This document shows positions 8,238 through 52,500 of a DNA stretch of 64,000 nucleotides, one piece after another (position 1 is the stretch's first letter; each line of letters opens with the position of its first letter). The DNA comes from Echinococcus granulosus. Taxonomy: Eukaryota > Platyhelminthes > Cestoda > Cyclophyllidea > Taeniidae. A program made the translations under genes and the position numbers. The DNA lies in contig NW_020170464.1 of the NCBI RefSeq assembly GCF_000524195.1, positions 120,431 through 184,430 of the forward strand, read 5' to 3'. The notes below the pieces were generated by a model that was given only the letters and a program-made list of their open reading frames with translations, was not told the DNA's origin and ran no database searches.

Positions 8238-10670
8238 CTGATGTACTTGAGCGCGGAAAAATAGTGAGAAAATGTACAACAATTCGCCAATTAATGATCT
8301 TGCAAACCGATTTAAGTTACTGCTCAAGGAATGTGGAATTTTCAGAAGGCACGCACCATAATCTAATCCCGTCATCATTTCTTAACAGGGAAGGCGCTCA
8401 GGTACGTACGTGAAATTCATAAGTGTAAATTACCCTTTTTTTAAAGTACGTTTGAACTAAGCAACCAATGAGCGACCAGAATAACTTGCATAAATAACAG
8501 TTAGATTTGGCGCGGAGGGGCTCAGTAGCAAATCTTGAGTATCAAAACCAAGGCAAATGCATAAAGTTATAAAAAAGCACCCATGTAAAATTTGAGAAAA
8601 ATAATTAATCGGCGATTGAAGTAAGATAGATTTCAAGGGGTTTATGGCTGCGATACAACCTCTACGTTTTTATAGATGTTCAGGGGAATTGTATAACTTA
8701 TCGGAGTACTAATGGAGTTACCCATTATATTTAACGATAAAAATATGCTGATAAATCATTAGGATGGCTGGTCATAATAAACATATATTCAGAATTTTCT
8801 ATACGCAGGCAGATTGGTGGGCTTTGCCAACCGTCATCACATTCACATTATTTTGCCGTACAAGTAAATGTGGGGAATAAAAATTGAATGATTTCTCTTT
8901 GCACTTGACATTTTGACACCATAATATGAAACATCGGTACACACAACCGGCCTGTATGTAGAGTCAACACAGTAAGCTTCCCAAATATCCCATTTTTAAT
9001 GCCGGTTGTTTTGACCTCAGGTACGTGGCCAAAGAGTCGTGTCTACTGCCCATAAAATTGGTGGGCGTTAACAGTAACTTACATCCATGCTTGTACGCTG
9101 TTATCACATTCGAAAAGCCCTAGTTTAAGTAGACCAAAATTTTGCATTTTAAATATTGAAAAGAATTTTTTAGTTACCTGGTCCACTTTATTCTATTCAT
9201 AGTTTCACCGTAAATGGAACAGTTTTTCGTTGAGTTAATTAGGCAAACTTTTTGAGGGCCCCAAGCCTTTGTTAAGTATAACTAAAGCCAGTTTTGGGAC
9301 TTTGAGGCCTGAATCATTAAGCTTTCTTTTAAGGCTTTTAATATAATTTTGAATTTTGTTTAGATTGATTGACGCCCGTTCTGATGGTTTAGTTGGTAAT
9401 CGCGGTGCTTCTGTACCTCGTGGTTGTTAAGGTGATTTCTTGTTAACTGAGTGCGTCACTTCCCAGTGGTTGTTAGCATAGTATTTGGTCCGTATTTTCT
9501 GGATTTTTAGTCTTTTTATTGCCACAGCATACCCTCCTTGTGTTTAAAATCAAATAGGTATTCGGGTTTAGATGCTTTAGTCTGGATTAGTTTGCATTCC
9601 TTTATTTACTGTCAAATTCTTTTTGCACTTGTGTGCGGGAAATGACGGATTTTTTGCGTTTCGAACTTTGGTGAGTCCGATTATTCATTGCCTTATGATT
9701 GTTTTGGTCAAGTTTATAGATTTCAGTACTTTAGTATCAATTAATGCCTTTTAGTTAATTTTGCCCACATAAGCTACATCTGATTTTATCATTTAGTATA
9801 CTGTTGTTTCACAAATTACTGTCTCTTTTAACTGCTGATGTCCCATTGTTACGGCCCTGTACTCTAAGTTCGATCGGGCGCTGTTTTAGACTGTTTTGTT
9901 ATTGCCTGGTATACTAGCTGGTCTGCGTAAGCTCTGAAACTTGTTTGCTTGTACTTTATGGTACCTCTGTCTTCATCAGTGACAGTTAGAAACTCTATTT
10001 ATTACATTAGCTACCTCTTTTTAAAGTTTTTTGCTTTTATTTAGACTTTGTTTTCGAGTCTTTTTGTCACTTTTTAGCAGCCATTGGTGCCTTTAAATGG
10101 GTGGTTTTGGGATTATAGCATTGCCTTTGGTAACTTCTTGGATTTGCGCTGATGCGCATATTGCCTCCTTTTTTGTCGTATTCAGAAGAATCAAATGTTT
10201 GATAAAAATGTTTATTAATCCGTTGGTTTCGGTAATTGACAGAGGCGTATACTTCGTCATTACACTTTATTTGTTTTCATTGTATCACCCTTTGCGGTCA
10301 CAATCGTGCTTAATTGCTTTTTTCCCTTGTTTTCTTTGAATACTTAAGCTAGCTTGATTGGTGGACCAAATATTTGCCAATTTCCCTTGATATTATTTCG
10401 AACATTTTTATGAGCCGTTGGGTATGCATCAAGTAGATTTTATCATTTAATTGATTTCTCGCCTTGCATTTGTAATGTATTTGCCTAATTACACTTAATG
10501 CATTCAACAGTTACGCCAAGATTGTAAGTTTGCCATCATCGGTATCTTATCTACAATGCGAGCCTCATACAGCGTTAGATTTCCTTCCCAAAAGAGCAAA
10601 TCACGGCAAGTCTCCCATTTCAATTCACTTGCATCAATGTGCAACCAGACTTATACTTCCTCTTCTCGAC
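8238..10670. other. Intergenic; strongly T-rich segment in the right half
   Basis: From about 9,340 to 10,530 the plus strand is markedly T-rich and A-poor (about 40% T in the stretch I tallied), unlike the flanks. Open frames in it (for example 10,097-10,339) are T-driven hydrophobic strings without homology. No tRNA, rRNA or mobile-element domain was recognised. Confidence 0.5.
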
Positions 10671-10680
10671 CTGCAGATCA
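10655..10680 (+). promoter_or_regulatory. Probable 3' acceptor (trans-splice or 5'-UTR intron) before transporter ATG
   Basis: A pyrimidine-rich run (CTTCCTCTTCTCGACCTGCAG) ends at 10,676, only four bases before the initiator ATG at 10,681. Flatworm mRNAs often receive a spliced leader, and an acceptor this close to the ATG fits that. An ordinary upstream 5'-UTR exon is the alternative. Confidence 0.5.
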
Positions 10681-13600
10681 ATGCCATCTTTGGCTTTACA
10701 TCCACGAAACCTTAAGGTCATTGGCCTGGTCATTTTGACTCTCCAAACCACCGCGCTAGTTCTTCTCATGAGGTACACGCGTCTTCCCTCAGCCACCAAC
10801 CCCGCCAGTAGCCTCTACCTCACTTCCACCGCAGTATTCTGTGCTGAAGTGTGCAAAGTTGTGGCCTGTTTCTGGGCTGTCTTCGTGCAGAACGGTAATT
10901 CCCTCAGAGCGACATCTACCGAATTGCAACGTGAGCTCTTCTCTGCGCCGCTGGAACTTGTCAAATTGGGCGTTCCTGCGGGGCTATACACCTTGCAGAA
11001 TAATCTGCTCTACGTGGCCCTATCCAACCTTGATGCGGCCACGTATCAAATCACCTATCAGTTGAAAATCCTCACTACGGCTGTGTTTATGGTGGTGATG
11101 TTGCGCAAGAGGATTACGATCTCGCAGTGGATCGCTCTATTAATTCTCGTTATAGGAGTTGCTTTTGTCCAGGTGTGCTGCTCTGTTGCCTAATGCTAAC
11201 TAGTACCCACCCTAAATTAAAACATCTCATCATTTTTTCAACCATGGGTTTATTTTTTGTCCAGATATATTTTTAAACAAATTATGGAAGGAGCTTAAAT
11301 GTTTCGTCCATAGGTCACGATGCTCATCTCTAAACACTTTCAGATGTGCTCTTTAAATAGTGGATATAAGTAACATACGCTGCAGTAGTCATTTTCATTG
11401 TGAGCATAGCACTTGTACGGGTTCGCCTGTTGCGAATGGTGCTGAATTCCGATGTGGCATAATTTCATCTTCACCTTTTTTCTGGTCCGAAATATACCTT
11501 TGAAGCTCTCTATTCAGTGGGCTTAGAATCCTGTTCCCTTACTTTCTCCCAATACTGCAAACAAAGGGCAACATTTAAAAGATACCTGTATTGTAGGAGA
11601 TAAGTGGGCGCATTTAATGGCGCTCTACTAGCAGTTAAGTGAACTAGAACACTATGATTTCACCTTCAATATTGAAAAAACGCCCCCATTATTTGGTTCT
11701 TTTAATCCCTCATTTGACGTAGGACTGTTATTGGGGGTGGACAGACCTACATCATCCTTTTTCGCTGTGTTCTAGTAGTGCTGGTTTCTTCCCCTTTCTT
11801 GAAAATTGCGGACTCGAAAAACCAGATAATAGTTTCATTCTTATATGACTTATTCTGTTATGCAATATGTGGTGTTAATAATTAGGACGCCAAATCTGAC
11901 TCACGCAGCCACTTTACCAAGAAAATGAAGGAAGGGGAGCAAGTTTTAATGTGACTAAATAAAAAGCCGATGAAATCATAGGTGGAATGGCCTACTTACC
12001 GAGGCACTAATGTCCCAGTTGGTCACTGTCATAGCGTATAAATAACTTCACTGGTACATACCGATGATTAAGGTGGCTGTGAGTGATTACAGGTGCTAAA
12101 GTATGAGTGTCAAAAGAATGGTAGCCTTTTGAAGTCAATATAGTTGTATGTTTTGCTTAATAGTGCGGCTGAAAGATTTCCTATTCTACAAAAATTGATT
12201 AAGGAGTACACATCCTACACTTATTCTCGTAATCTAGACCTTGACTGGCATTAGGCTTTTCTGCTTTGTTTCTTACACACGCCCCGTACATATATTTGCC
12301 TTTTTCTATTAATTGGGTCATGCAGGGGCTTTTTCAGTTAAACAGTCGTCATCGCAAGCAGGAGAAAAAGCATAGGCACAATGCAATCTTGCAATTTTGC
12401 CTCGAGTCAGTCGTCCTGGAAGAGGTTTAACTCATGCCTCCATTACTGTAGCTCCCACTTATAGCCTGATTAGGGGATGTCTTTGTTCAATTGACAAGGT
12501 GCTTCTTCGTAGGCGAAATACTTTTCTCGATTGACTCTTTCTCTCTTAGCTAGCGCCATCTGCCAACGCAACAGCCAAAACTCCCAAACCACTGCCAGCA
12601 CACCAGAATACCCTAATTGGTCTCACCGCCGTAATTCTGGCCAGTCTTTCTAGCGGATTTGCAGGAGTCTACTTTGAGAAACTCATGAAGTTCACCGCAC
12701 CCTCCATTTGGATTCGTAATATTCAACTCGGTGAGTTATTAGGCTTGTGGCACCCACAAAAATAGGCTTCTTTTCCCGTTTTTTCGTGCTCTGTGTCGTA
12801 TTTTTTTGACAAATCTTGCTATTGCAATACTTGTACCGTTTTATCACTTCTAGTTCTACGGTGACTACCTCTGTCATTCCACGGAGGCATTAAATGATGT
12901 GCTTCAACAACTTTTTTGCCTTAAAGTAAGCCTAAATAAATTTGTACTTTAACGGCTTTCATAAGGTCTTTATCTGTGTTGTTGAGGTAAAACAGAAAAC
13001 AGTTCCTCAACAACAATGCCCTATCAGTACTTTGAAGACAACCCCGTAGATGTCCAATCATCCATCCTCTTAATCGTGCAGGCCGCGTGAAAAGACAGAG
13101 TTTAATGGAAAGTCTCCCGATTTCAAAATTGGCAGGTCTGTGTTTCTTCCCAATAGCCGTATGCAGACTGTCGTAGTGTTTCTGAGACCTAAGAGCAAAT
13201 CACTTTCATTCAGTGCACTTTCGTGCATTTGTTATGCGATTGTTCTCAGGTTATCCTCTTTGTCTAGCCTCTACACAAAACTCGACACGAGATGGTACTG
13301 TTGTCACATTATTTTGCCCTGAGTGCATTTACTGTGACACACCTTAGGCGACTTTAAATTGTATCAAATATTTCTGGTCTTCTTAGGTTTCGTATAGTTT
13401 GCTATCGTCGTGGTACTCTTGAAGGTGCTGTACAAAGCATTATTACAAAAGCGCATTTATCAACTGTGCACAAGTTGAATGGGCAGCAGGAATGGGCGGA
13501 GCTGCGCACCACTGACTCCCAGTGGTTGGATAAGTGGAAGCTTTATTCTGGTGCTTAGTCGCCGTTCTAGTATGGATGCTGCTTTAGACGTTGGTAGTGG

Positions 13601-16600
13601 TCCACCTCGAGACATGAGCCCTCCTACGACGGTTTTTTGGTAAAGCATGAAAACCTCTAGATTCGCTTACTCCTTGTACATCTTGCTGATTGTTAGCCAA
13701 ATGTATGAAAGGGATGATGTTTCGCTGCGAGTCCACTTTGCACCTTCTTCGCTTTGGGTGATAGCATTGGCCTGAACTCAAATGTCATTTCAAGATAACT
13801 ACCAGTACAATTTCTTATCTATTTTTCTCTCCCAACCATATACAAGATTAGCTAATTTTCCTACCCCTAGCCACCTCCTTTTCTATCTCACGTTTGTTTC
13901 ATGCCTGCCTGTCCTATTTCGTACGTGAAGATGTGAGTGACGAATGACAAGGTGAAAATGAGGACGAGGATTAGGATAGTATAGTATTACCCTTTTTGTC
14001 ATTCTAAAGGACAAATTTTGCTATAGGAGGCATGCAAAATGAAGCTGTTGCATGATCTCATTTCCCATGCCACCGATTCATTAAGTGCTGCCAACTTTCT
14101 CTCAAAAAGGAGCCAATTTTTCGTACACTCAAATTGTATCAGGCGAAATCCAGTGGTACTGGTCTTTTTTACTCCATTTTATGGTTATTTATTGAATAGG
14201 TCACGCAATGATATGGCTGAGATGCAATCCAAGCGGTAAATTGCCAAGTTCAACTCCCACCCATTGGTTTGAGCATTGCTGTTGATGTGAGTGGTAGAGT
14301 TGTTTACCGCACCAAAAACGATCCGCTAAACTTCAACTAACCAGTCCTAATAACTTATTTTATGTAGCTACAATGATTGGGTGTCAGATAGATCTGTTAT
14401 TGTGTTTGTTGAGTGCTCTTTGAATCACCTAACACTATCTCGATTTGATGTCGCACCCTGTACAATCGCTAGACACTTCGGCGCACTTCTGCTTTTGTAT
14501 CAGTAGTGGTTTGTCATTTTTGTGGCGTAGCATGATAACGGTTGGTTCAGAATTGATCAATTTCTGTTTTTGTGGTGCTCTGTTCATGTGGTATAACTTA
14601 AACAGTCGACCACTCAGCTTCAGCTCCTTTAAAATTCATTACCATTGCTGATAAACTGTGTAGTTTCTATGTGATAACGTATATTTTTCGCTCTCATAGC
14701 AGAAATTTTAATCGTGCCAACCACTTGGTATAACGAGACATTTTTCGTTTGCAGGAATCCTACCAAATTACAGGACTTTTGACTTCATTTTTTCCATACA
14801 AGGTTTTCTGTTGTTACATTTACTCATACATTTTAGCTATTGGCTAGCAACTCAAAAGATTTACCATTTAGATCTGATTCGCCCTTGGAAGCCTGCTTTT
14901 CTTCGTCATTGATGCTGAAATGCTGATATCCGAGGCATTTCTTTAGGGATTCAAGCGGGTGAAAATAACTCGAAGTAAGGTGCGAGCTTTGAGAAGGACG
15001 TAGCAATGCCCACTCAGTGAGTTGCTCTAGTGTTTGCGTAGTGCGACAAACAAATCTAAGATTGGCGCTTGCTCGGAGGAATATTAGCCCTTTACGATCA
15101 AATTCGGTCGTTTCTTCCGTAGAGACTTATGCACACCACGTAGAAAACAACGGCAATGCTGACTATTGATGTTTAAATTACAAACTTGGAAATCCACCCG
15201 AATAACACCACGCGCCTTGGAGTACACCTTTCATCGCCTTATTTTCACATACACCATTGCTCGAAGTTCCTTGGCGGTGGTGAATTTGTATTCTTCCACC
15301 ACATCGATGCTCGTATGTCCAAATTTCTTCACATTTACTAATACAAATCGGAAAATTCTAGCCTTTATCAAAGCTTTGTTTATTTCAGCAACCAACCAGT
15401 CTGCGTTTATCAGAAGCGGAAATTTGCCTTTGTAGTCACCGTACACTAACTTGTTGGAACTTCCAACCTTGAATGGTTGTTTTTATCATTTATGCATCGA
15501 TTCTTGAAGACTGGGCGTTTTACGCGCTAAATATTCATAAAGAATTACTACTGTTTATTCGAAATCACTGCGACTGGAGTCTTTGCCGACACAGGTACGA
15601 TAGACCGCCTTATCGTACTCTACTTGACTTTTTGTGTAGGTATCTGCGTGTTTGGGTTCCAGACCTTCTTTAGTATGAAGCCTTGTTTGTCAACGTCCGG
15701 TTCTCTACGCATGCACTACCACTACCATCGTACACAGAAATATTTAGACTGACCTAAGTCATACGCCCCGGCCATTATTCCACGATGGGGACGGCCGTGT
15801 GTAGTACCGCTACAGTAGCACACCCTTTTAGAGACGCAATATTCAGGGCTCCTGTAAACGATCCCTTTTGGGTCACGTCATGTCCAAGAACAGAATAGAA
15901 GTATTTGATGGCTCATACTCTTTGTACTGTAGAACTTTCACAGAGCATCTCACAGTCAACAACAGGACGGATTAGTATTGTTAAAAATCAGCCACAGCTG
16001 AAAAAGGAAGCATGATCTAATCTAGAGATTATGGCAGTTGCTTACCTTTTCAAGCTTTTCGGTGGTCCGTTAGCCTTGTATGCCTTTGCCTAGCCGTGAC
16101 CGGGAGGAGTGTTGATTTAGTTTTATGCACAAATGATAGAACTAGTTGGATTTTTTAAGTTTCTCCTCTCCTATTTCTTCACGGATGTATTTCTTAATCT
16201 TCACAAGGATTTGTGTTTCTTCGTTGTTTTTTAAATTTTATGATGAAAAAACAAGTAGAAGGTTAGCAATGGTTACTGGGTCATCTTGTTTGGCATGGAG
16301 AAGCAATGAAGTTGCAGGTTTTCAGTGACCTTCAGAAAAGACAAAACGCGTGATTTTGGCTTCAAGGTAACTAAATTAGGTCGTAGAGTCTTTTTAAATA
16401 CAAGAAATAGATACATAACATTTATCGAGCTAGCAGTTGGTACAAGTTATCACCTTTTTTTTCATTCCCAGCGGGATGCGGAGTTGGGGAATTCAACTTA
16501 TTTGAGACATTTTGCCTCCAGGCGTAAGAACAAAGTCCCAGACACCTCATTTTCTATTTCACTTGCATTGACCAACTCTCTGTCCATGACTTTGGGAACT

Positions 16601-18811
16601 ATTGCGATGGGGTTATGGAGTGTGAAAACCAGAACGAGGATGAAGGTGGGGATGGGATTGATGAAGCAGCGTCTCCCTTCCTTGCATCCTGAAGCGCGAA
16701 ATTTCTCGTGTTGAAGTTCTGCATGATCATACGAGGGGTGATGTATGAAGAATGAGGTGTTGCATGGTCTCGTAAAACTGGGACTGACTTCTGATTCGCT
16801 GAATCGTGCTGGGTGTTATTGAAAAGGACGTTAATGTTGCAAATCGCTTGGTGTGGGGTGAATTTTAAAAGGTAAATGTTTGGTCTACAGCAAGTAACCA
16901 GTTCCGTCTCCTGTCCGTCCTGCACAAAGCAAGAGTGGTCGTCTGCGAATGAAGTGGAACCCTAGAAGTGTGGCGTGTCTACCAGTGGATTCATGGGGGA
17001 TGACCAATGACGTCTCTAAAATTCTAAAGTTGTTTCTCATTATAAATCAGTTTATCAGCCACTCATCAAGCAGTGTGTAATGTATGTGCTTTTTCTGATG
17101 TGAAGTGGGTAACAAATTGATATTCTTTGAAGCCGACCACCATTTTTTTATGCCAGGCATGTGGCACGCATTTGCTTAGTATCTTCCAAGTCCTTTCCTC
17201 AATTGATGCAGGTGTAAGCGAATTGTTTTATCGTCCGCTTTAAGCATTATTTAAAGTTATTATTAAAGTTCTAGTCTCGGATCGCCTTAGTCAATAATGA
17301 CGCTTCGTGCTCCATGATTAGGAATAACGGTCCCTTGCTAACTTTGTGGTTCTTCATCTGGTAAATCATCAATGGAATTAAATTATTTGAACTATTTCTG
17401 GGTATGGATTTAACTACTGCTCCTTTTCCAAATGCCACATGTCAAATTTAGCGCAAATCCCCTAAGCTCTGAGGTTGGGTTAAACTCCCTTTTAAAGCAG
17501 GCAAACTAGGACATTTGTCAAGTTCAGTTGACACCAGGAAACAAGGGGTGAAAAGTAGGCAAAAATTAGTGCAGCGTGTCTGCTTTGAATGTATGTCTGG
17601 GTATAGTCGCATCCATTTTACAATCTTTTGCAAATTTCGAGTCATGACAGTCTTCTATACCGGAAGCTGCAAGACTTTTGGAGTGCAGATTTATTCCTTT
17701 GGGGTCTGACGTGTTAACTTAAACCAGAAACACCAGCTGCCATCTTCATGTTGAACCTTTTTGACAGGTTTTTGGGGCTCCATTTTGGCCTTCATTGGTG
17801 TCTTTTTGACTGACGGTCATGTCGTTATGCGGGATGGATTCTTCCGTGGCTACAACTTGTTTGTGGTCATTGTCGTTGCTCTACAGTCGCTAGGTGGACT
17901 CTGCGTTGCAGTGGTAATCAAGTACGCTGACAACATTCTCAAGGTCTTCGCCACGTCCATTTCCATCATCTTCTCTTGTCTCGCCTCCTACTACCTCCTC
18001 AATGACTTTCAACCTAACTGGTATAACTTTCTTTGTGGAATCGATGCCCTTTTTTTAAATGAGACGTTTCGTGGCTTAACGACTTTACAGTTCTGATGAT
18101 AAAAGTTCTATCGAAGCGGCTTTTTCCATTCCATCCTTCCAGACCAATCACTCAATTTGGCCATTTATTCTCTTATTCATGATACAAACACGTCAAATTT
18201 GGTGCCATATCATTAAAAGCGGTGCCGAATGCACTTCTCTTCTTCACTTGGGCCTTCTGCTCATTTAAAAGTGTTAACCTTGACGTTGTAGAATGTCAAT
18301 CGAGGTGCTATTTCGAAATCGGCTTTGTGGAATTTCACTGTGGTTACTGTTAGTTAATCTTCAAGCTGGTCTGTTTTTGACAACTTCTCCGTAGGCAAGT
18401 AGTGGCAAGCCTTCCCCCAGTAGTATACATGTGATGTTCCAGCTATAACCTAAGTCTTCTAGTGTTATTAATTTGATTATCGCAACTTTCTTGCATTGCC
18501 AAATTAGGCCTTTGCTTTTCTAAGCATTTAAGATCCTGTAGTCATGTGATCTTATAATGCTTCTGCGAAGAAATCCCAACACAAAGTAGGCGCAAACAAT
18601 ACCCGTTTAAACAGTTTTTATGCTACTTTAAACTGAAGTGGTTAGCAGTCTTAGGTGCCAACGACAATTTGTAATTCTTATTTTTTACACTGGTTACAGG
18701 TATTTTGCGATCGGAACGATAGCTGTCTTGAGCGCGACCGCTTTGTACAATTTGGGCGGACGAGAGAAACCACCTCCATCCGAATTACCCCTCACTACCA
18801 GCAAAGATTGA
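10681..18811 (+). CDS. SLC35A3: UDP-sugar transporter, SLC35A2/A3 type (Golgi nucleotide-sugar antiporter)
   Basis: Exons are 10681-11172, 12550-12730, 17768-18020 and 18700-18811. They join in frame to 345 residues with a TGA stop. The product is a multi-pass Golgi membrane protein expected to import UDP-N-acetylglucosamine or UDP-galactose in exchange for UMP. Family signatures are visible: [20 protein letters not shown] and YQLKILTTA in exon 1, [13 protein letters not shown] and IWIRNIQLG across exons 2-3, and [11 protein letters not shown] and FATSISII in exon 3. The length is close to SLC35A3 in vertebrates (about 325). Donors are GTGTGC, GTGAGT and GTATAA. Exon 4 encodes the last hydrophobic helix and a short polar tail without an obvious dilysine signal. 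The start at 10,681 is chosen because it follows an acceptor and gives the expected N-terminal NLK...LQTT segment; an upstream in-frame start at 10,639 would add residues foreign to the family. A2 and A3 substrates cannot be separated by eye. Confidence 0.92.
11173..12549 (+). other. Intron 1 of transporter gene
   Basis: 1,377 bases between phase-0 sites (CAG/GTGTGC and TCTCTTAG/CTAGCG). I see no nested gene or repeat. Confidence 0.8.
13880..14110 (+). repeat. Dispersed repeat family B, partial copy
   Basis: Resembles the later copy in two blocks: GTGAAAATGAGGACGAGGAT against GTGAAAACCAGAACGAGGAT at 16,621, and GTTGCATGATCTC against GTTGCATGGTCTC at 16,761 with similar following bases. It is more decayed than the 6.9 and 16.5 kb copies, and its ends are uncertain. 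Confidence 0.4.
16449..16810 (+). repeat. Dispersed repeat family B, copy 2
   Basis: The left 200 bases match 6,857-7,112 and the right part (about 16,730-16,810) matches 14,030-14,100. This is the copy that links the other two, so the full unit is probably at least 350 bases. The open frame 16,325-16,714 over it has no recognisable domain. Confidence 0.55.
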
Positions 18812-20843: not shown

Positions 20844-23800
20844 ATGTATTCGGAAGAGCGAAAGAAGCTAAATCGGCTCTCTCGTAAGGCTTCCAACACC
20901 TGTGGAACCAAAAAACGCCTTCTGAACAGCCGTCTGGCTGGAAAATCCTCCCTTAAGGGCCAAAAACATCCTAACAGTAACGGCGTTCATTTGTCTCGTT
21001 CCACAACTTCGAGACATCTCGACTTTCCTCTCGAATTTTTCAAGTCCTGTGCTGAAATTAACGCAGTCAGTCCCTTCTCCGGAGAGGGCATTAGCGTGCT
21101 ACAGAAACACCTCTATCAAATCACCACCGCTCTTGTGCAGAATGCCGTTCGTAACATGGAACAGAATCGGCGCGGTACTCCCCACATCTCCGATATTGAT
21201 TCTGCGGCTCTGGCAATGGGTATGGACATTCCCTATGGTGCAGCTACCGGTGAACTTATTCCGGTGAGAACTAGCGGACGCAACGCTGCTCCTGGAGTGG
21301 GTGGAAAGATGATTCTAATTCGAAAGGACAAGGAGGTGGATATTAAGACCCTTCTGCGACGTCAACCCACTCCTGTGGTCTACGACATCAGTCTAGTGGG
21401 TGGGTTTGTTGTTATTACTATAGTTTGTCAATTTTTAATTTGAATTTTTTCGTTTTCGGAGCTAGTACTATTCTTTCTCTTCGGTAGTGCATTGGTTGGC
21501 GATAGATGGGGTCCAGCCGGCCTCACCGCAGAACCCACCACCAGAGTTTCTGCGTCGAATGACAATGCTTTCGGGTACCCAGACACCGAAGGCGATTTGT
21601 ACAGCCCTAAACCCCACTTTAAAAATTGACGACACGCAGCAGCCGTCTGTTGACGCAAAGACTGATAAGAACAAAGCGGGGGATGATCGGGCTTCTCACC
21701 CGCGGGTTATGCAAGCCCTTCATGTCGAAGTGAGGAATTGGTTTAGTTATCTAATGGATTCTGTTTCATCTGTCTATAATTCTATACATCGTTTGTTAGT
21801 AGATTTTTATCTCTTTAGCCAAAAACTAGCTAAAAAGTCTATCGCTAAGTCAGGATTATTGCCATCTTAAATTTGGCGTTGCAATTTTGCATTCGGGTGT
21901 TTCTTTTTGTGATATGGGTCTATACTTAGGTTATTAACTGCTTTATATATCAGCATTATAATTCAGCCTTTGTAGTCTCAGTGAGAACGAGACATTAATT
22001 GGACCAGTAGGTGTGTTTTCTGTTAGGTGTTAGGGCGCATTCTTTATGCTCCATTATCCGCTCCCGTACCTTCGGTTAACGTTAGCAATTCACCCATTCT
22101 GTCTAAGCATGAACTACCATACTAATCCGAATGGTTATCTTCTAGATATTGATCTGATTTACAAAATCAACGTGTATGATATTATCAGGCAATTGAGAAT
22201 ATTACCCTGATATCATACTTCTGGACGGTACCTTTAGCAAAAGCCGCGTTGCGTGCTCTACAAAACACACCTAACTGAAAATTAACCAAGCAACTGTCTT
22301 TATTGATCTGTACTAGCACTTGTCATTAACCATTAAATAATCCATGAATGGTTTAGCTCTCTTTTACGTATGGGTCAAATTCTCGTTTGCAACACATATT
22401 TCCCTTCATCAAAGCTTAGAGCAGCCTTTCAAAGGAAGTACTTGATTGATTTTGAAAATGCACTGAATTTTGTTTGAATAAGTATGGCTCGTCTTTTATT
22501 CAATCCGCTTGCTTTTCACATCCCAAGACTAGGAGGAGTAGTGTGACAACTCCTAACTACAGTGAGTGGAATTTTTTATTCTTAAAGTCGTACTTAATTC
22601 ATCACTTTGTACCTTCCCCTCTTCAGCGACGTCCACAAGAAGTAAGTCAAGAATTGATGCTCTATTTTCGGGAGCTCACTGAGGCCTGCGTCGGGGCCAA
22701 CGAGATCCGTCGGCGAGACGCTCTGGAGAACGCCACTCTAGATACCGGTCTGCAGCCCCTCGTGCCCTACCTAGTCACCTTCATTGCTGAGGGTGTAGGT
22801 GTCACTCCTCCTCTTCCCATCCTGCTGTCTTCGTCTTTTCTACTCTCGTTCTCCGTCTAGATCCGACTGAATGCAATAAACAGCAACCTGGCTATCCTTA
22901 TCTACCTGGTTCGTCTAACTAAGGCGTTGGTTGACAACCCCAACGTCTCCCTGAAGGCCTACTTGCAGAGCCTCGTGCCGGGCATAATCACTTGTAGCCT
23001 CTGTCGCCAGGTCTGCGCTAAACCCATCACCGACAATCACTGGGCGCTGCGCGACTTCGCGGCTAAGCAGCTTGTCGCCATCTGTAACAAGTAGTGGCCT
23101 CCACTCCATTTTTCTAAGCGTGTTTATGATGTAAGAAGTAGCGTTACTTATCGTCTGGAGCTATTCATTAGCTGTTGTATTCACGTTTACATTGAAGTAA
23201 TTCTGCCTCACTTCTCCTCTTATTAGATGTTTAGCTCTCTGAGGTAATAAATCTTGTGATGAATGTTTTGCTCATGTTGCATTGCAGCATTTGGTTTTCT
23301 CGATAATTTTTTAACTTTGACTTTTGATCATCTTTTAAACTGGTTTTTTTTGTCAACGATGATACAGATTGTGATGCATTGAGTGCCAGTTTATTTTGCC
23401 TTTTGGTAAACCTATTAATAGTTGGAGTAAAATTTTCTACTCAGTCGCTCGGCATTATTCAAGTAGCCTCAACCCATATATCTTATTGAGCGTCAAGCTC
23501 TAAACACTATTTTACTAAGCTTTCGATTCTCTTAGGTAATATCGCTTTCGTTGACGTTTTGTCTTATTGTTTCACCTAGTCCTTTAACAGTGCATGAATG
23601 TCACCACTTCGAAACCACTCCTTTTTTGTGTGGTTATTACTCCTCGATTCGATTTTCATATTTGGAGAGCTTTTGAATGTGACTAAAGTTAAAGTTCCAA
23701 ACTTATTTCGTAAATTTCCTAAAGGTACTTGCGTCTTGCTCCCTCCTCCCTTCCCACCTTCCCCATTCCGACGGCTGTTTTCCAGTCTCTGAAGTTATTT

Positions 23801-25781
23801 TTTGTGGAATTCTTTTTGTCACGGGGAATCCTGTCAATAGTTCAGCTTGGAAAAGGAGGGTCCTCTTTTCTTCCATAGTTTGCTCTAGTGTACCTCTACA
23901 TGCGTCCATGTTGTCTTCCCCTTGACTTTTCGCCGTCCAAAAGGCGCTCTGATCGTGGTCTCACGAAGCGTCCATTGCGTGTTTTGCTTTCTTTGATTAT
24001 TTTCAAAGTGTAGACGCTGTTATCAACTTTTTGTGAGTATTTGAAGCAACCTCTAATCGAATCCGTTTTGTCTCCCTGCGGTATATTTGTTAACTTGGAA
24101 GTCCTCTTTGAAACCATTTTTGCTGTGTTGCTTGCTGATCGATTTAAAGGGGATGTTTTTCTCGTCTGCTAAATAATTTCACCTTGTAGGCTGAAACCAG
24201 CCTCTTCTGTTGGAGCGACTACATACCTAACGCCGTTTTTCTTTCCTTCGAAATAATCGTGTCAGGAATACCACATAGCAAAAGTTCCTTTTCTTTCGTC
24301 AAACTATCCAAGAATTAAGTGTCTGATTTTCGCTGGATAATTGCTAGCCTACATAGATGGTTGTTTTCGATCTTTTAAATTTGTTTTTGTAAGAAGGTTT
24401 TACTGGTTCACGTCCTGCGTTTTCAGCTCTCATGTTCGGCTCTAAATTGCTCCTTTCTCCCAGCATAATGGATTCCACTTTCTATTTTTAATAGACATTG
24501 TTTTATCAACATCTGGTCTTCCTTAAGCGCAGATAAGAGTGGCCTATTTTTTCAATTCTACACGTCATAATTTGCAATTTCTGCCGAGCTATTTGCTTCA
24601 CATTTTGCAACAATGCAATTTGACAACCTCCTCGTCCTCGGATTGACAGGATCCGTTTTGTGTATGTTCGTCGACATCTAATGATGCGGACGTTTTTGTT
24701 CTTGTCGCTCTTCCATCATACTTTGATTTAACCGTGGACAATTACTCTGTAGTAAGGAACTCGATGGCTTCACCGACTTTAACCGCCACATTTTGAGGGA
24801 TATCTTACCTTCTCTTACTGTAAATCTCATATTTCCGTTCGTAAAATTTAGTTCAGTTCCACCGCACTTTTTTCCGTAAACTGACATTTTGACCAGATGC
24901 CTTCTTGTAAACGTTAGCTCAAAATAAATACTAGGGCCTCTTGCCTATTTATTTGCTCTTCTTACCTCCAGATACAATACATCATGCAACGGTCTCTACA
25001 GTCGCATAACACGCGAGCTCTACCGCGTGCTGTCCACTTGGATTGAGGGCAAATCGGCGGCTACTTCGGACCACTTTTCTACTTCCACCTCCTCTGCTGC
25101 CACTACCTCTGCCGCCACCGACAACACTGACCACTCTTCTTCCACCACCCCCACCGACCCTACACGCAAGGAGATCACAGGGGTGCCTCGAGTTTCCTTG
25201 GGCATGGCAGTAGACTCTCTCAATACTCTCTACGGCACCCTCACCTGTATTACCGAGTTTGGTGGTAATTGCCTTCGCATGCTTGTCTTTCCTCGCCTAC
25301 CGGCGCTGTGCAGACGCCTCACTCGTATGACCACTGCTTCTGCTTCCAATACTCCACAATCCACCGCATCTGTGTCGAACCCAGCGGAGATGGTGGTGGT
25401 GATGGACCAGGAGGGCTTTCAGCAAACGTTCAACGCCTCTTCCGCCACCACTCTACTTTCCAACGCTGAGATGAGATCGCTGGACTCGCTTAAGAAACTC
25501 ATGAATGTGAGTGGCCAGTTAGTCCACCTCAATCTGTTGTAGCCATTTTTGATTGGCCCACCGATTATGTCATGCAGACGCGATTCGTGGGCCTATTGGC
25601 GGAGTGGCGTGTAAGGCAGAATCTGCCAGTGACGCCGGAGGCCTATAAGGCGGACTACGGAGTTATGGCGTCGTGTCTTTTCGCGTCGGCGGCACAGGCA
25701 GACCCACCGCGACCTCATGCCACTCCCGCGGGAGCACTCATTGTGACTAAACCACAGCCCCCCCTCAATGTCTCTCGCTAG
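20844..25781 (+). CDS. TAF6: TFIID subunit 6 (TAF6): histone fold plus HEAT domain
   Basis: Exons 20844-21399, 21488-21729, 22627-22794, 22861-23090, 24972-25506 and 25578-25781 join in frame to 644 residues and a TAG stop. TAF6 is a core TFIID subunit that pairs with TAF9 through a histone fold and helps load TBP at RNA polymerase II promoters. The histone fold spans about residues 60-128 (FPLEFFKSCAE, then SDIDSAALAMGM). The family hallmark HWLAIDGVQPA...NPPP crosses the exon 1-2 junction. The HEAT region begins near residue 270 (FRELTEACVG), contains NHWALRDFAAK in exon 4 and SRITREL in exon 5, and runs into exon 6. Compared with animal TAF6 there is a basic extension of about 55 residues before the histone fold and a Ser/Thr-rich insert in exon 5. 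The long Ser/Pro C-terminal tail of vertebrate TAF6 is absent. The intron 1 donor is GTGGGT; the shortest intron is 66 bases. Confidence 0.93.
21730..22626 (+). other. TAF6 intron 2
   Basis: 897 bases from GTGAGG to CTCTTCAG, phase 0. Nothing else seen inside. Confidence 0.8.
23091..24971 (+). other. TAF6 intron 4
   Basis: 1,881 bases from GTAGTG to ACCTCCAG, phase 2. Open frames on the minus strand here (for example near 23.9 and 24.7 kb) have no recognisable domain. Confidence 0.75.
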
Positions 25782-26792: not shown

Positions 26793-28269
<1,477 letters not shown>

Positions 28270-38287: not shown

Positions 38288-41200
38288 CTAGCCGATGCCA
38301 TCATGAGGTGGTAAGATGTGAGAGAGGTAGAAGGCGATATCGTCCATATTCAAATCGACATTAGTGTCTTGAGAGCCGCAAGGTGCATTACGAGCAGTAG
38401 CAGCGGTGGAGAAATCGCGGAATCGAATGCTGCTGCGTCGATTCGCTCCGGCGGGTACCAGACCTGCCACCGTGGCGACAAAGGCGTGGTGTTGAAGCAC
38501 CTCCAGCGACGGTCGCTCTACGCTCTCTGTGCGTAGGCAAGAAGCTACGAGGTCTATGAAATCGTCACTGAAGCATGTTCGTGGCAGGCGGGGCAGCGGC
38601 TGCTCCACAATAAGCACCAACAGCTCGAAAATAGACAATGGTGCCTGTTCCGGTGTCGTTACGGCTTGAAGAGGAAGAAATATCCGCTTTACAAATGCGT
38701 GTCTAATATAGACAATTTTGACCAGACAAAATTCTGCTCTGAACGTTGAAAACCCTTCCAAAGTAAATGGCCGTAACAAATTAGGACTCATGAGTTCAGA
38801 TTTACTAGGACAATGAATAAACACACTATAAATCACCCTCAACCAGTAAAGTAGTCAATAAACAGAACAACATGATGGAAAGAAGAAAAACTGGAGGGTT
38901 AAGTGAGCATGTAACCAGTACTTATATGGGACACTTTTAATGGACTGTTTGCACAGAATACAACGAAAAACCTCAATAACCATGGAGCTTATCTATTGAC
39001 AAAATGTAACCTCATTACAAATGACCACAAAAGTGAGCACAAATAGCTCCCAAACAACTTTGGAGTAGTCAGAAGTAAAGGTTGTTAGATGGAGAAAAAA
39101 TCTGCATTACACCCTATGATAGAAGAAAACGCCTTAGCTTACTGGTCAGCACTAAGTTAAACGTGGCAGATCACTATTGTTATGGCAAGACGAGGCTCGA
39201 GATTAGAAATTGGCGCAGTACATCTCGGTTTTCTCTTCAACAGAGGTTAGACTTACAAATACTGAAAAAGGGGATCAATGCGGTCAGCTTAGCCCCTGCC
39301 AGTCAATCAAGAGCTACTCGGTAGAACCCAAGGTAATTGGAATTAGGTTGACAAAACGACTTCCTGCTTTTAAAAAAAGCTTAGGGATGCAAGAAACCGT
39401 ACAATCAAAGAAAAAAACCCAAACACCCATCTGTTTTGTTCTGGAAAGATCAGAGCACTGACAGGGTGCTTAACTGCTTCCTTATTCTAAAACACCACAT
39501 CACAAGTCGATCAATGAAAATGCATTTTGATGGTCATGACAAGTAATCTGCGGAGCGAAATCCAGATGTAAGAGGGTGGTTGAAAGAGCAGAAACACAAC
39601 AATAACACTGCAGAAGACTAATCCATTGGATAAAAAACCTCACATAGAGGCGGAGACATTTCAGAAACATTGCCGTCGTTAAGGTAGTTTCAATATCAGA
39701 AGCTCATTCTCTTGGAAGTAGAAACACCACTAAATCGACTACTGCATAAAAGGGTTAAGAGGACTAGATAACATCTTTAAGCAAATTACACAACTGTGAG
39801 TTTGGACTTTTCTGACCCCAAAAAAAACAAGATGAATGAAGGCGTTATCCGGCGAGAATAGACCGTCTCTCCCTCGACATTGGGAGAAATTACGTCTGAG
39901 CAAAGGTTTTAGGAAGTTCTACATTATCCCAATGCGAAAGAAATTCGACTTAGACAAGAGAATGGCTACTAAATGAATTGGGATCTTCTCAGGCTGCTTT
40001 ATAGTACAAGTGTATCGCTAAGTAAAAAGCATCCTTGACGGTAACTGACCCACCGATAAACTAAGCCTTCTAACACACAGGGTCATGGAATGCGGCTAAA
40101 CTTTCTCCTTTAAGATCCACGATAGGAAGAAAGAAAGACGAATAAGGATTGTTGAATCGTTATTAAGGTGTGTAGGTGCATGTTCGAAAAGCTAGAAAAG
40201 TGGGAAGTACCAAGCCGTCAGGGTTACACTCGAACTGACCTACGCATAATGCATTTGTCGATACAGAACAAACGTCAATTCTATGACCAACAGAACTGTA
40301 CGAAAACCATCTATCACATCGTGCGTAGAAGGTACGACGATAGATTTTAGCTACTAAGTTGCGTTGAAGAAGAAAGATTGCCACCTAGTGTAGGAAATGA
40401 ATGTTAGAGAGTAAATTCTAAGCTTCAGATGAAAACTACAAAATCTGCACAATGCCCTGTTAAAGACGAAAGTATACCCCTAACCTGCATCCAAATTGCA
40501 CAAGATCTACTGGTCCAATGATGTGTAAAGTTCATCAAATCTAGTTTTGCAATGTGACAAAATGTAAGAGAATGCGAACGATTAGAGAGTTCATGAGAAA
40601 GGCCATGGAACGTGCACGCTAATTTCGTATGATTATAGGGGGATATTATACATAATGATATAAGTCAATCTAGTGAATGAATAAAAATGCTCAGACTCAG
40701 GGCAGCGACACCCTTAAACATGGATTTACAATTCCTTAACACACAGGCAAAAGAAAATCCTGATCTAGTGCTCCAATATGAAATTCCCTTAACTTAGTTA
40801 CTACTTCAGCCAAGATAAATATCCAGCGAAGCATGTCTTGAACAACCTAAGACACACTTAAAGTGACAGTTGGTTGTGACTGGGATCGTAAACTCACGCG
40901 GCAGTTTTCGTCCCTCCCGAGCAGCAGCAATGTGTTCCTTCAGGTTGGTCTGCCGATCATTAGAAAATCCGGTATAGTATTGGGTTTCGTTCTCAATAGC
41001 GGGGATAGGATAGCGACCAGTGGCTAGTTCTATGAGAGTCAATCCAAGGCTCCACACATCCGAGGATGTGTTGTAGGACTGACCAGAAATGCGCTCTGGC
41101 GCCATATAGGACCGTGAGCCTACAAAGGAGTGCGCCACCGAGTCGATCAACTTGCCGCTCGCTCCGAAATCGCACAGCTTGATCTCACCATTTCGACGCA

Positions 41201-43596
41201 TCAGAATGTTCGACGGCTTCACATCTCTAAATCGCACGGGAGAGCGTAAACGGAAGCTAGCGAACAATCTTGCTCTAATTATGGCTCGGCCCACACCGCC
41301 TATGCTAAGAGCCATCCAGCCTTCCAGTAAATATATACTGAAGCTACTTTAGCCAATCATCTATAGGAATGACTGACACGCTGAAATTTGAACGGAGCGT
41401 GACCCACCTGTGAATCATGCTGAGCTGTTTGCGTAGATATTCAAGGCCACAAAGAACGGCATATAGAATGCGGGACACAATTGGCTCGGGCATTCGACCG
41501 GCGTGCTTCAGCACCATGTCCAAACTCCCTCCATCCATATACTCCATGCATATGTTGATGTTCCCATCAGCCAGGAACGCACCATAGAAACCGATAATGT
41601 AAGGCGATGCGCAGTCGTGTAGAATCTGGGGGTGGACAAGGGAGAGACGCGAAAGTAGTTTATAGAGGTAGATTGAAAATGACCGAGATCAATCATAAGT
41701 GGGGATAGAACTGATTGGTTTGCGAACTATCAATGGTGAGAAGTACTTTACCAATCCAATTCGGAGTTGGGCTTTGGTTATGAAAACCAAAGGCACAGTC
41801 AGTAAAGCCAAAGAGAATTGCGGTAGCGCTTTGAGATGATATGATCAGCAAACTATTTCAGAGATGTAGCAATGTTCATTGATTTTAGCCTCGAGAAGTC
41901 CCCAATTTTGCGATAAAACAAGGAGGCATATGCGTTAAAACCGCCTTCGTAGTTATGCGTCTGATTAGTTCCTTTGCTTCCAGAGGTGAAGTAAACAATA
42001 AACAGAATGACGTTGAAAAGCGCGGTTAAACTTCTGAATGTTGCCCTCGAAAATGACTAGAATGGTGTTGGTAGCAGCATTTTGGGATGTCACGCATCTT
42101 TTATTTCCAGCAAGGGATAAGAAAAATTTACCAGTGCATGGGTCTAAATAACTGAAACCACGGAGGCAGGCAAAAGAGCATCAAGCAAACCTAAATCAGC
42201 TTTTTTAAGAAGTGGCTCGTGACCTCAAATTTTGTAGCATGGTCGACAGCTTGACTAACATACGACATTTCGACCATGACACCGGTAATTTAGGTGTGTA
42301 CACCTTAGCGCATAGCCGCGCTGCTCCCAAGTTAAGGTTGGATAAGTAATATTTGTACCAAATAATGTCAACTTTAGATGACAGTTTGACTATCCCTGCA
42401 TCAACCTTGCATAATACGTACGGGCTTCACTCATCTTAATTTCAATATCCAACGTATACACCCAAACCCCAAATCATGCCTAGTCGTTACGATAAGATGC
42501 TTGTAACACATTCGCGTCTTTGACTTAATTGGTTGTCGAAGAGCAACCTACAACAACTGAAGAGACAGGATCGAGGGTACCGAAGATCATGCCAACATCA
42601 AGTGAGGAAATGAGAAAAACAATTATCCAAATCGGGCTCATTCTATCGTGTTACGATTACTGTGCAGATTATACGAGGCTTCCATTACGTTTTCGCTGTT
42701 TGAGGCCTCCCAGCCCGGCCTGAACAATTATGAGAACATAACGATACATATAGTGAGCTGAATTGTCGCCCATGAGAGAAAATTTGTAACCTCAGAGAGA
42801 AGTGATGACCCACCTCAAGTTCTCGGAGTATTTGCGTACCTACTTCATGCTTAATGTCCAACCGAATGGTCTTCTTGGCCATTATGATGTTAGTCCGGTT
42901 GTAGCGCACACGACTAACCACACCCCAATTGCCTGAGCCCAGCTCGGAGATCTTAGTAAAGTCTTCTGGGTGCAACTCATGGATGTCCTTCTTGCAACGC
43001 AGAAATTCCTCAATGCGCTCTCGCTGGCTGTCATCCAATTGCTGATCATCGAGTTGGCGTTGACTAAAAATGGTAGAAGGTATAAAAAGCGATATGCCAA
43101 TGTTGTGGGACAATCAAGCAACCATGAAAGCATCCAATAGCCCATCCATTTACTGTTTGCGAGAAAATCCCGAGCAAAAACCCTTAGTTAAAATTAGGGA
43201 AATTTACGCAGCAGCGAGATCAACAGGTCCGGTGCTCATGCGATCATTAGGTTTGTTGGCCCCGCCGCGATCATGTCGAAGGACGGAGAAGTTGCCGGTG
43301 GAGGCTTCAGCAGCGCCGATGCTGGTGAGCGGTGGGAGGCGGACGCGAGTAGGCTTCGACGAGGGGTTAGTGTTGGCGTTGGAAGAGGCGGAGGTATGAT
43401 GGGAAGGGGGATCGTCCAGTCGTAGGGGGGTGAGGTCAAGGTTCTGGATAGTCACCTGCCGTTTGCCTGCGAATCGTAATCCTGAGGCCTGGGACTGCGG
43501 CCCCGTAGGCGGTCTCGATGGATCCACACCGGTCTCCAGGTGATCCCCGCTACTGCCGCCTCCTCCTACCGGCGTGCTGTCCGTCAGACCCGACAT
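38288..43596 (-). CDS. MAP2K1: MAP kinase kinase, MEK1/2 type (dual-specificity kinase)
   Basis: Exons on the minus strand are 43596-43208, 43063-42814, 41625-41408, 41226-40898 and 38664-38288, joining to 520 residues. MEK phosphorylates the Thr-x-Tyr loop of ERK in the Ras-Raf-MEK-ERK cascade. Motifs include the glycine loop GSGNWGVV (172-179), ATP-binding Lys194 (MAKK), [13 protein letters not shown] 285-287 with the Arg codon split by intron 3, [11 protein letters not shown] 305-307, activation-loop serines 315 and 319 in the SxxxS pattern of MEK, APE at YMAPER, and the C-lobe SIFELL...VEQPLPRLP typical of MEK1/2. Odd points: an N-terminal extension of about 130 residues (human MEK1 has about 65 before its kinase domain), rich in Gly, Ser and Pro; a shortened proline-rich insert before SIFELL; and a C-terminal tail of about 65 residues. 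Donors of introns 2 and 3 are GTGGGT. It is an orthologue candidate for Echinococcus MEK1/2-type kinases. Confidence 0.94.
38665..40897 (-). other. MEK intron 4
   Basis: 2,233 bases, phase 1, donor GTGAGT and acceptor CCTCTTCAAG. No other feature seen. Confidence 0.8.
41626..42813 (-). other. MEK intron 2
   Basis: 1,188 bases, phase 0, from GTGGGT to a C-rich acceptor (CCACCCCCAG). No other feature seen. Confidence 0.8.
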
Positions 43597-43625
43597 TTCA
43601 GTCTACCAGCGAGGGCAAAGGCATG
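43597..43625 (-). promoter_or_regulatory. Probable trans-splice acceptor of MEK
   Basis: On the minus strand a pyrimidine-rich run ends GCTGGTAG at 43,603, six bases before the ATG. This is the fourth complete gene here with an acceptor-like site just before its start. Confidence 0.4.
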
Positions 43626-48145: not shown

Positions 48146-49584
48146 TGGTGGAGTATTAAATGCCTGCATAACCAAAACGCAACTCCAAACAAACAGCCAA
48201 AGTGCCGCTGTTACGCTCTAGTAGTTGCTTAACTCTAGGTTTTGGCAACGAGAAAATAAGGAACTTTTCCTTATACATTCTCTGGATGATACGCTCCGTA
48301 GGTTTTGCCGGTAGCTCCAGTTTTATATTATACTTCAGTATTATGTCCTCTTTCACATTAAAAAAAGTCTCAAGGCACTAAATTTGCCGATATACTTAAA
48401 ACGGGAGGGCGGACTGCAATATCATTCAAGCGTTGACTTTCAGCCTCACATCTGGGCTCTATTAAAGGTGTTTGTGCTGCGAACACTTCTCGTACCATGG
48501 GCATGAAAAAGCACCATCTTACCAAAAATTCTTCACTTTTCGTGTGTCAAAAATTCTGTCAAATATGACCAAAACTATTTAAAAAGTAGAAATTTTACAT
48601 CGTGAACTTATAGCATATGTGAACATAAGCCAGTAATTTGGCATTAAGGCGGATTTTTTTGCCAAAGTAAGGACAAAATATGCAGATTTTAAAAGTTTGA
48701 TTATATTGCAGTAGATTATTTTGCAAACCACGTCTACAATTTTAGTATTCAAGAAATTTGTTTATGTTCTCTACAATCGTAGGTCACATAGAACAATATA
48801 ATTGGCGTATGCATGAGAGAAGTCTTATTTTTGCCTGATGGGTTTGTCGTCTTCGAAAGACGAGTATGTTCAGATATCTTTGGATGTTTTAAGCTTGAAA
48901 CCTTTTGTTTTATTGCCATTCAGTATTGCTTTCTGGGCTCCTTGAGGCACCTTGTACACTGTTGTCACCCAAAGAGAATTTGAGGAGCTTTGCCTAGCTT
49001 ACAATACTCCCACATCTCCGCATATCATTTTTTTTTGCGTATACCTTTACTTCGATAGATTATCGCTTTGTACATGCACTACACTTTGCGATTTTTTGGA
49101 AACTAACTTTTTCTATGCGTATTCATTGTGTGATGATTTAGCTCAAGTGATATTGTTGTCGCTCATTTGTTTAATTTTGTATGACACACATTTATACACC
49201 AAAATTTGTTTCACGTCTCAGTTGAAGTAGTTTGCATTATTGTCTTGAAGTGTTCTACGTCTGGTGGCCTTTCTGTTTCGGAAAGTAAACAGAATTTTTT
49301 GTGGCTTTTGAACATGCATATGCAAATAAACGGATTGGTTTACCTATATGTCATTTTGTCCAGCATGAGGCCACTGTGATGACTCCTAAAATATAAATAA
49401 TGTACACAGTGTATTAAGTAAATTTTTGTATTTTCAAATAAATTTGAGATATTATTGGATAGTTTGTGTAGGATTCACACAGCCCTTGTCATTTGCTAAA
49501 CCCTCTATAACAGGTTCGAACTATTAAAATTTTTTTTAAAAGTTCCTTTTTACAAATTTCTGGAATTGTCCATCTTTGTATCAG
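48146..49584. other. No exon supported upstream of the EGF-module exon
   Basis: The signal peptide and prodomain of the downstream EGF-module gene must lie here or further left. I could not identify them. A possible exon at about 49,224-49,285 has good sites but the wrong phase. Confidence 0.3.
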
Positions 49585-52500
49585 GGTTATTCGTGGCGAA
49601 ATCGGCTGCGACAGCATAGGCACCATGCAATGCAGTGAAACCAGTTCCCTTATGTGCTTTGAGGGTATCTGCGCGCTCTTTATAGCCGAGACAGAAAAAC
49701 GGTGTGTGGAACGGTGCAAGTAAGTCTTAAAATGCACAACCACTACTAATAAACGATGAATGAGACTTGTAGTGACAAAAACCATTAATGATTATTCCCT
49801 ATTTATTTGCTGTTAGGCTATATAAGTTTTACCTTTTAGATGCTATCCGGGATATTTTGGCGAATATTGCCAGTTTCGTGATAGTAAGTGACTTACAGTA
49901 CTGTAAAGATTTCAGTCATAAATTTGTGCACTAAATTGGTGAAATTTTTTATTTTATCTTCCCGAAAATTTTGAAGCTAAAGCAGCTCTTATTTGATAGG
50001 TTCAATATTTGCCACGGCTGGAATAGTAGGAGGCATAATTGGGATATTTTTACTCATTTTCCTTGGATCCCTTATCTGGTGTTGCTGGTAAGTTAAGTCA
50101 CCTTTCTCATTTTTGAAGTCACTCCTATGGCTTCTCATAGAAATGTTTAATTTTGGTTTTTTTTCCGCCAAAAAAGGTACTTGACATGGTAGGTAATAGC
50201 CATTTTTCGGATGAAGTGAATTTGGATTCCCTTGTCAGTGCTAGCGCTAACATGGCCTACATACTAACTGGTGGTTAAGATCTCTCACTACTCCCCTTCA
50301 ATGGGTATGCAGATTCGTTTACACCTAAATCGCGGTTGAATACTAATTTGTTGTAACTAGGGAGAATTTTCTTACTGATTAAGCATGGCAGTGCCTTCGC
50401 AACAGCCATTTGTAGGGTTCCTTTTTGTCACCACTTTGCTTCACGGAATTTCATTTTGTGTATTTTTAACCGTGTGTTAGACTGCGGCTAAAGCTTGAGT
50501 CTTCACAGGTTACACTTCCGCTCGGCGGCTAGGCATTGGGAACCACGCTAGTAGCCTCCCAGCTATTTTTTACATTAGGAACTTGGATGTTCTACCACAC
50601 GACTACAGCTTGCTACGACTTCAGGGAAGACTCAAAGGATACTCTAGAATGTCGCTTCCAAACTGAAGCATTTGATTCCCTTTCCATCATATCAACACAA
50701 TTCTTGAATTGTATAGCCAAAATAACCGACGAAAAGGTAGAGCATAATGGATCAACTGAAGAGGCTGATTGAACGATAGCTTCAAGAATGGCTTATTTGT
50801 AATGCGTAACCTCAAAATAACCCAGAAGCCATGTTTAAGGAAGTGCTTTGCATCATCCCAGCACTCTACCACAACTTTACACACATAGATTTTTTCTCCA
50901 GAAGAAGAAATGTTTAATCATAGTGAAATAAACTGACGGAAAATGACTTTCCCCGTCTAAAATGCCGGGATGATTAGAACAAAACTTTTCATTTTAAATT
51001 CACGGGCTAAACTGCTACTACTCTCGTTGAAATCGGCAACTTTTTAGCGTAGATGTATATACAGCGCTTTTGTGAATGGGCGACTTAAACTACCGGTGGC
51101 GTAAACTTAACTTTTGCCTTTGATCTCACTTCTTGCTGCTCCTGTATGTTAAAGAAAGAAATTATTTGGATGAACTAGGTTCAAAGTGTATTATTTCTTA
51201 ACAAGGAAGAAGATATGCAGCGTGATATCACAAGATACCCGAAATTTTGTCCACCAAGGGTCATTTTTGATTGTTTTGTCCCCACCATTATTCTCCCTGG
51301 TTCGGCTCACTGCATCATATGCCAAATTGTATCTGCGTGTGAACAAAACCTGCCTTTTTTGACTCCTTCAAAACTCATGTAACATTAGCCCGCCAGTCAC
51401 GCGTAACAATGTGGAGGCGAATTTTTTGCGTATCCTTTTTATTCACTTAATCCAATGCTGTGATTGGTTAAAGTTGAGTAAAGCTTATCTCATATCAGAG
51501 TTCAACTCGCTTTGTCACGCACCTGTTGCATCAAGCGTCTGGAGGTCACGCGGGATGCACACACTTTCTTGCCACCTCATTTGATGGCAACAAAATTAAG
51601 TTTTGAAGCCGCTTTCTTACTTCCTTTCTTCTTTCTCCTTTTACTTCGTTAAATTTGATTGGTGAAAGTTTACTTGTTGCAAATAGCATCGACAAGTAAT
51701 TTCTCTGGTTGTAGCGATTTGACACCGACATGAGAAAAAAAAACAGTTCACCGGGAGGATTCGCTTAGTTAGTGGCATAGTGCATGCACTTTTGATCGGT
51801 ACATCGGCCTTAAGTCAATTCTGACCCTCAGAATGACATTCAAATGGAGGAAAAAAAGCATTTCACTCCACACACGAAATCGGAAAATAGTTAACACAGC
51901 AACCGTTTTACAGTTTGCTTTTAGCCAGATAATGATTGGTCTACTAGCATTATCTCCGAGGTATAATCTTGCTAGACTAACAATTTTCTCTGAGAGCTAC
52001 TTCATTATCCAAGTGCCAATTTCTTCTTCTTTCAGTCATTCGCGCCGAAAGAGGTAAGCCTGTTGCGCCATGTTTGATGGAACGATTTGCACGCGTTTGC
52101 CCTGTCTGACCCGCCTTGACTACCACTGCACACTAGTCCCCAGCCCATCTCATGCGGGCGGGCAGGCAGGGTTGGGCAAATCACCACCACTACGTGCATG
52201 TGCATTGTGAGAAAAAACGCCATCTGTTAGCCTCCTCTTTAGCCCAAAAAAGCTGCTAAAAATAGGTTACATCTGATTTTGTCGCCATGGGGTGGTTTTA
52301 AAAGGTGGTACAGTGTACCACCTCCGTGCATCACGGAAGATATGCTTTTCTAACCATGCACCTTAGCACCCTATAATGCTCTTCAGAAGCTCATCGTCTT
52401 TACACGACTATCTTTGTAAACCATGATTGCTTGTAAAACCAGGTAAAAATCCACTATGCGTTGCTAAAAAGGTGAGGCCTTGAATTTCCACTTGATTAAA

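Follow-up and report, generated by a model that had tools for sequence, protein, structure and literature searches.

A small single-pass EGF protein of cestodes, spread over eight exons in Echinococcus granulosus, as a candidate ErbB ligand

Does Echinococcus granulosus make its own ligand for its EGF receptors, in a gene whose exons escape lists of open reading frames? The question was raised by an original prediction made on a 64,000-nucleotide stretch of genomic DNA (the window; contig NW_020170464.1, positions 120,431 to 184,430), in which three exons of 135, 44 and 88 bases were proposed to encode a lone EGF module lying next to a transmembrane helix, resembling EGF-family growth factors. 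EGF signalling controls the larval stem cells of Echinococcus and is a drug target (PMC12963305). Three EGF receptors are described there for E. multilocularis; two home-made candidate ligands are named, and the receptor EmER3 is left without a partner. The gene analysed below may be a further home-made candidate for the parasite receptors, possibly one more ligand.

An eight-exon gene and its 221-residue product

The three exons proved real and correctly placed, with GT-AG borders and a single common open frame, but the chain extends on both sides of them, giving eight exons in all at 48838-53500 (+), of which they are exons 2 to 4. The exons are:

48838..48863, + strand: exon 1, 26 nt, encoding MGLSSSKD plus 2 bases; weak donor
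49585..49719, + strand: exon 2, 135 nt, with an extra cysteine, C1 to C3, a further extra cysteine and C4
49840..49883, + strand: exon 3, 44 nt, carrying the C5-C6 part of the EGF module, KCYPGYFGEYCQFRDS
50000..50087, + strand: exon 4, 88 nt, transmembrane helix
50177..50188, + strand: exon 5, 12-nt symmetric micro-exon YLTC, with a weak acceptor; present in P0121
52036..52053, + strand: exon 6, 18-nt symmetric micro-exon HSRRKR, a basic stop-transfer segment; present in P0121
52595..52697, + strand: exon 7, 103 nt, tail; from the best-scoring splice chain, borne out by P0121
53261..53500, + strand: exon 8, stop included, tail with RPRSG-Y-EHE and the acidic dileucine-like ETSHLL

They are separated by introns of, in order, 721, 120, 116, 89, 1847, 541 and 563 bases. 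Downstream exons were sought with generic splice matrices and a simple coding model built from long open reading frames. The 18-nt, 103-nt and last exons were predicted by this splice scan before the E. granulosus protein A0A068WIB1 (P0121) was known, exon 8 having the top coding score in the region scanned. The 26-nt exon was a low-ranked candidate and the 12-nt exon was missed, and the borders of both were set from A0A068WIB1. Exon 1 carries the start codon, in agreement with the start of this protein, and seven sense codons separate the ATG from an in-frame stop ahead of it; exon 5 has a counterpart of equal length, YTAC, in Taenia crassiceps (P0123). The translation of the window is identical to A0A068WIB1 at 221 of 221 residues, and a 181-residue model given in the original prediction could not be reproduced. 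Across its six frames the window has the C5-C6 motif a single time, while 60 first-order Markov random sequences averaged 0.033 occurrences, and given the conservation seen in further cestode genera a chance origin is untenable.

The 12-nt exon, the 18-nt exon and exons 3 and 4 taken together (132 nt) are all multiples of three, so that skipping them would preserve the frame. Two predicted relatives, P0124 (E. granulosus) and P0126 (T. solium), do skip exons 3-4 in frame and thus have neither C5-C6 nor the transmembrane helix. Such forms are database gene models and not proven transcripts, and correspond either to gene-model error or to a real isoform.

The product has a single EGF module, followed by one transmembrane helix and a tail predicted to be cytosolic. 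Ahead of the module just MGLSSSKDE is found, with no EGF array, Ig domain or signal peptide, and the N terminus of P0121 is not hydrophobic; no fitting signal-peptide exon was found upstream of 49585 in scans of 43.6-49.5 kb and 28.3-49.5 kb. On the contig of the window, no Ig domain was among the matches listed for two Ig models (150 of 228 candidates scored for one, 150 of 219 for the other). After the hydrophobic helix, at about residues 76-94, come a basic segment and a tail some 125 residues long. The layout is therefore an N-terminal EGF module without cleavable signal peptide, a helix, a basic stop-transfer and a conserved, presumably cytosolic tail, and the predicted single module beside a helix is borne out by the full protein.

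An 88-residue query returned no homologue, probably owing to the length filter of the search. A 206-residue model, with the exon 7 acceptor placed six bases downstream of the one backed by P0121, then returned ten relatives of 166-244 aa, ranging from Echinococcus to Spirometra, with A0A068WIB1 on top. All ten share nine invariant positions in the tail motif RPRSG-Y-EHE, which is the sole long conserved stretch of the tail; the acidic dileucine-like pattern is present in seven. A MGxxxS start, which is a pattern for N-myristoylation, is found in seven of the ten relatives and in four genera, and is absent from P0128, P0129 and P0130; being a pattern match, it makes myristoylation putative. At the depth searched, the gene is single in Echinococcus.

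The surroundings of the gene comprise:

10579..18093, + strand: nucleotide-sugar transporter
22456..25539, + strand: TAF6
26809..28269, + strand: enolase, with 96% identity to the Taenia crassiceps and 92% to the Mesocestoides corti enzyme
38291..43602, - strand: protein kinase (Pfam Pkinase), resembling a MEK-type MAPKK by eye

The position of an apparent MEK-type kinase, a step of EGFR-ERK signalling, beside the candidate ligand gene is probably a coincidence.

Resemblance of the EGF module to ErbB ligands

The C1-C2 and C2-C3 spacings of 7 and 4 and the phase-2 intron between C4 and C5, on which the ErbB-ligand interpretation had in part been built, were both seen. A phase-2 intron at this place marks ErbB ligands. 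The six cysteines of the pattern C-x7-C-x4-C-x14-C-x-C-x8-C are spaced in a ligand-like way, with a C3-C4 gap of 14 residues that is one above the usual ErbB-ligand range. The module is EGF-like as had been proposed, but its cysteines are eight and not six, the additional ones sitting before C1 and between C3 and C4. All eight are invariant in the seven full-length relatives (P0121-P0123, P0125 and P0127-P0129); the comparison omitted P0124 and P0126, modelled without the exons for C5-C6 and the helix, and P0130, modelled without an EGF module.

Searches against the PDB were then compared with controls. The single sequence gave 31 matches, nine of them with E < 0.01. These nine were eight EGF-family growth-factor entries and the ant toxin 7r6p, a mimic of vertebrate ErbB ligands; the remaining ones included heregulin, betacellulin and others mixed with haemagglutinins, selectins and Notch. 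When a profile built from seven cestode modules served as query, ErbB-type growth factors or 7r6p took the first 27 of 36 places, and the other nine went to selectins and neuraminidases with E of 0.78 or worse. All matches of the Spirometra relative (22 of 22) were ErbB-type ligands or 7r6p. Two control EGF modules from this genome behaved differently: for the EGF module of a gene on contig C271, nine Notch chains preceded the first ErbB-type chain (11 of 34 matches being ErbB-type), and for a Notch-like module, Notch came first and the first ErbB-type chain was at rank 37 among the best 60 of 88. Judged by sequence, the module is of ErbB-ligand type, with ErbB ligands nearer to it than EGF modules of other kinds.

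No Pfam EGF model reached its cut-off, either with P0121 or with an 88-residue piece. Other signatures do see the module, since UniProt calls four relatives 'EGF-like domain-containing protein'. Surveys resting on Pfam-type models could overlook the gene, because EGF models stay below cut-off.

Elsewhere in the genome, the module was matched best by the C271 gene (L019, L040 and L041, at about 1874593; E 0.12), which was rejected, being EGF plus thrombospondin-like with Notch first. It reads as a lone EGF module with a thrombospondin-like segment and a hydrophobic helix. A search of the genome with a TGF-alpha fragment returned one Notch-like place only. A scan for the C5-C6 motif in 20 stretches chosen by their Ig matches did not find a neuregulin counterpart; the motif was matched in four of them, of which L020 was rejected as perlecan/laminin-like, while L028, L030 and L032 did not look like EGF modules. 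Exon-by-exon searches of this kind miss split modules, and counterparts of the published ligands EmNRG and EmEGF could escape them.

Receptor contacts, orientation and rival readings

Arg41 and Leu47 are the two most important side chains of human EGF. The human EGF mutant R41A retains 0.05% of affinity and L47A about 2 to 2.5%, and five human EGFR ligands have both residues in common (PMC4282322). At the position equivalent to Arg41, the seven cestode modules carry Y, H, H, N, Y, H and N, and at that equivalent to Leu47 six carry S and one V, meaning that Arg41 and Leu47 are found in none of the seven full-length relatives. As far as could be tested, not every ErbB ligand requires them, so that their loss weakens the proposal that the protein activates EGFR like EGF more than it weakens family membership. 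The partner may be another receptor, the interface may be altered, or the protein may not activate.

On the receptor side, receptor-type L-domain or GF_recep_IV matches were observed on contigs C202, C233, C256, C261 and C264, with a weak one on C270. For E. multilocularis, three EGF receptors and two insulin receptors have been described, which by number could match the five contigs. The receptor-like gene on C202 reads FEGDAFHH when its exon junction is joined by eye, at a position where human EGFR has FRGDSFTH, and so appears to retain the Asp with which Arg41 pairs.

The helix of P0121 is flanked by a charge of -1 before and +4 after, which favours an N-out, C-in orientation. In P0122 and P0127, whose models have no micro-exons, the charge after the helix is 0. 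AlphaFold2, run with seven sequences, gave a mean pLDDT of 47.9; the helix was the only confident part, and the EGF part (about 36) was left unmodelled.

With gene structure, family resemblance and conservation established, our preferred reading, with a probability of about 0.52, is that of a small single-pass membrane protein of EGF/ErbB-ligand type, neuregulin-4-like, shown or shed, and engaging a parasite EGF receptor. By the parallel with neuregulin-4, the helix would be a reverse signal anchor placing the EGF module outside the cell; we favour such an anchor because neuregulin-4 shows that an ErbB ligand can do without a signal peptide (PMC8064692). The module would be displayed to neighbouring parasite cells in contact signalling, or shed, and would engage one of the parasite's EGF receptors. 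EmER3 would be the most open candidate: it did not bind EmNRG, and human EGF gave at most very weak growth (PMC12963305). The ligand reading is supported by the EGF receptors of the genus described in that source and by the receptor-domain matches in the genome. Counting against it are the absent Arg41 and Leu47 equivalents, the apparent Asp on C202, the lack of a signal peptide, the zero flank charge in two relatives and the EGF part left unmodelled by AlphaFold2.

Alternatively, the protein may descend from an ErbB ligand and not activate a receptor; it would then be an antagonist or decoy, or else a membrane protein built on an EGF scaffold that acts in cis or in adhesion. This is the most serious competitor, although we hold it to be clearly less probable. 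The two extra cysteines and the loss of both contact residues in 7 of 7 relatives, despite their large effect in human EGF, speak for it; yet the module is still closest to ErbB ligands, and the importance of the hot spots is judged from human receptors only. A different doubt concerns the side of the membrane. The myristoylation-type start goes against an N-out ligand: if the N terminus stayed myristoylated on the cytosolic side, as this start would permit, the cysteine-rich part would be no extracellular ligand, a reading further suggested by the missing signal peptide and by the helix-less models P0124 and P0126. We consider it unlikely, given the positive charge after the helix in P0121 and P0123, the three relatives without the start pattern, both Spirometra-type proteins included, and the eight conserved cysteines and EGF resemblance, which suit an oxidising compartment.

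It is less likely still that the gene is merely the E. granulosus counterpart of EmEGF or EmNRG and nothing new. No such counterpart was found elsewhere in the genome in the searches above, and the published ligands could be compared by description only; those descriptions, however, give EmNRG a signal peptide and an Ig domain, and EmEGF a signal peptide with no transmembrane helix mentioned in the excerpt (PMC12963305), and the gene numbering discussed below would also place both far away. An ordinary adhesion protein with more EGF repeats is scarcely credible: three exons by themselves left room for further repeats, but the complete protein has 221 residues and one EGF module, its relatives have 166-244, and the upstream EGF repeats or lectin or protease domains that would betray such a protein were looked for in the complete sequence and none was present. 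Within the preferred reading of a receptor ligand, a more daring and improbable version would be a protein tethered at both ends, by an N-terminal myristate and by the helix, signalling by contact only and serving EmER3 without the Arg41/Leu47 interface. The literature search, in open-access text, found no myristoylated EGF ligand.

The original observation is confirmed, and its interpretation as an ErbB ligand is partly supported. The gene was hidden insofar as it is absent from lists of open reading frames, but annotators had already named its protein 'Epidermal growth factor', and as home-made cestode ligands have also been published (PMC12963305), the claim of an undiscovered one does not hold. 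It is a named yet apparently unstudied member of the EGF-ligand kind: no study of it was found in open-access text by accession, locus tags, enolase-adjacent numbers or topic. The question it poses is whether a conserved cestode EGF protein without Arg41 acts on EmER3, or blocks signalling.

Comparison with published ligands and neuregulin-4

EmuJ gene numbers are taken to follow genome position, a condition on which the next argument depends. The enolase gene of the window lies about 20 kb from the ligand gene, and enolase is EmuJ_000514200 in E. multilocularis (PMC10266102), numerically far from EmuJ_000753300 (EmEGF) and EmuJ_000090400 (EmNRG). Like the protein studied here, EmNRG and EmEGF each have just one EGF domain and are candidates for home-made ligands (PMC12963305). 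A survey of ligands by domain make-up is given in PMC4914847. EmNRG comprises a signal peptide, Ig, EGF and a transmembrane segment, and binds EmER1 and EmER2 but not EmER3; EmEGF comprises a signal peptide and EGF, and its receptor tests failed through background growth. The 221-residue protein has neither the signal peptide common to both nor the Ig domain of EmNRG. By these descriptions, it fits neither and is set apart from them. From A0A068WIB1 there is no difference, as this is the same E. granulosus gene, named by its database entry.

TGF-alpha, EGF and epigen were the best solved-structure matches of the cestode module. In the alignments obtained, these have Arg ahead of C6, where the cestode modules have Y, H or N, and the two extra cysteines further separate the cestode module from them. 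In architecture, the closest system is vertebrate neuregulin-4, which according to PMC8064692 has an EGF module beside the membrane, no signal peptide and no Ig domain. Compared by this description, the tapeworm protein differs from neuregulin-4 by its eight cysteines, its MGxxxS start and its tail of about 125 residues.
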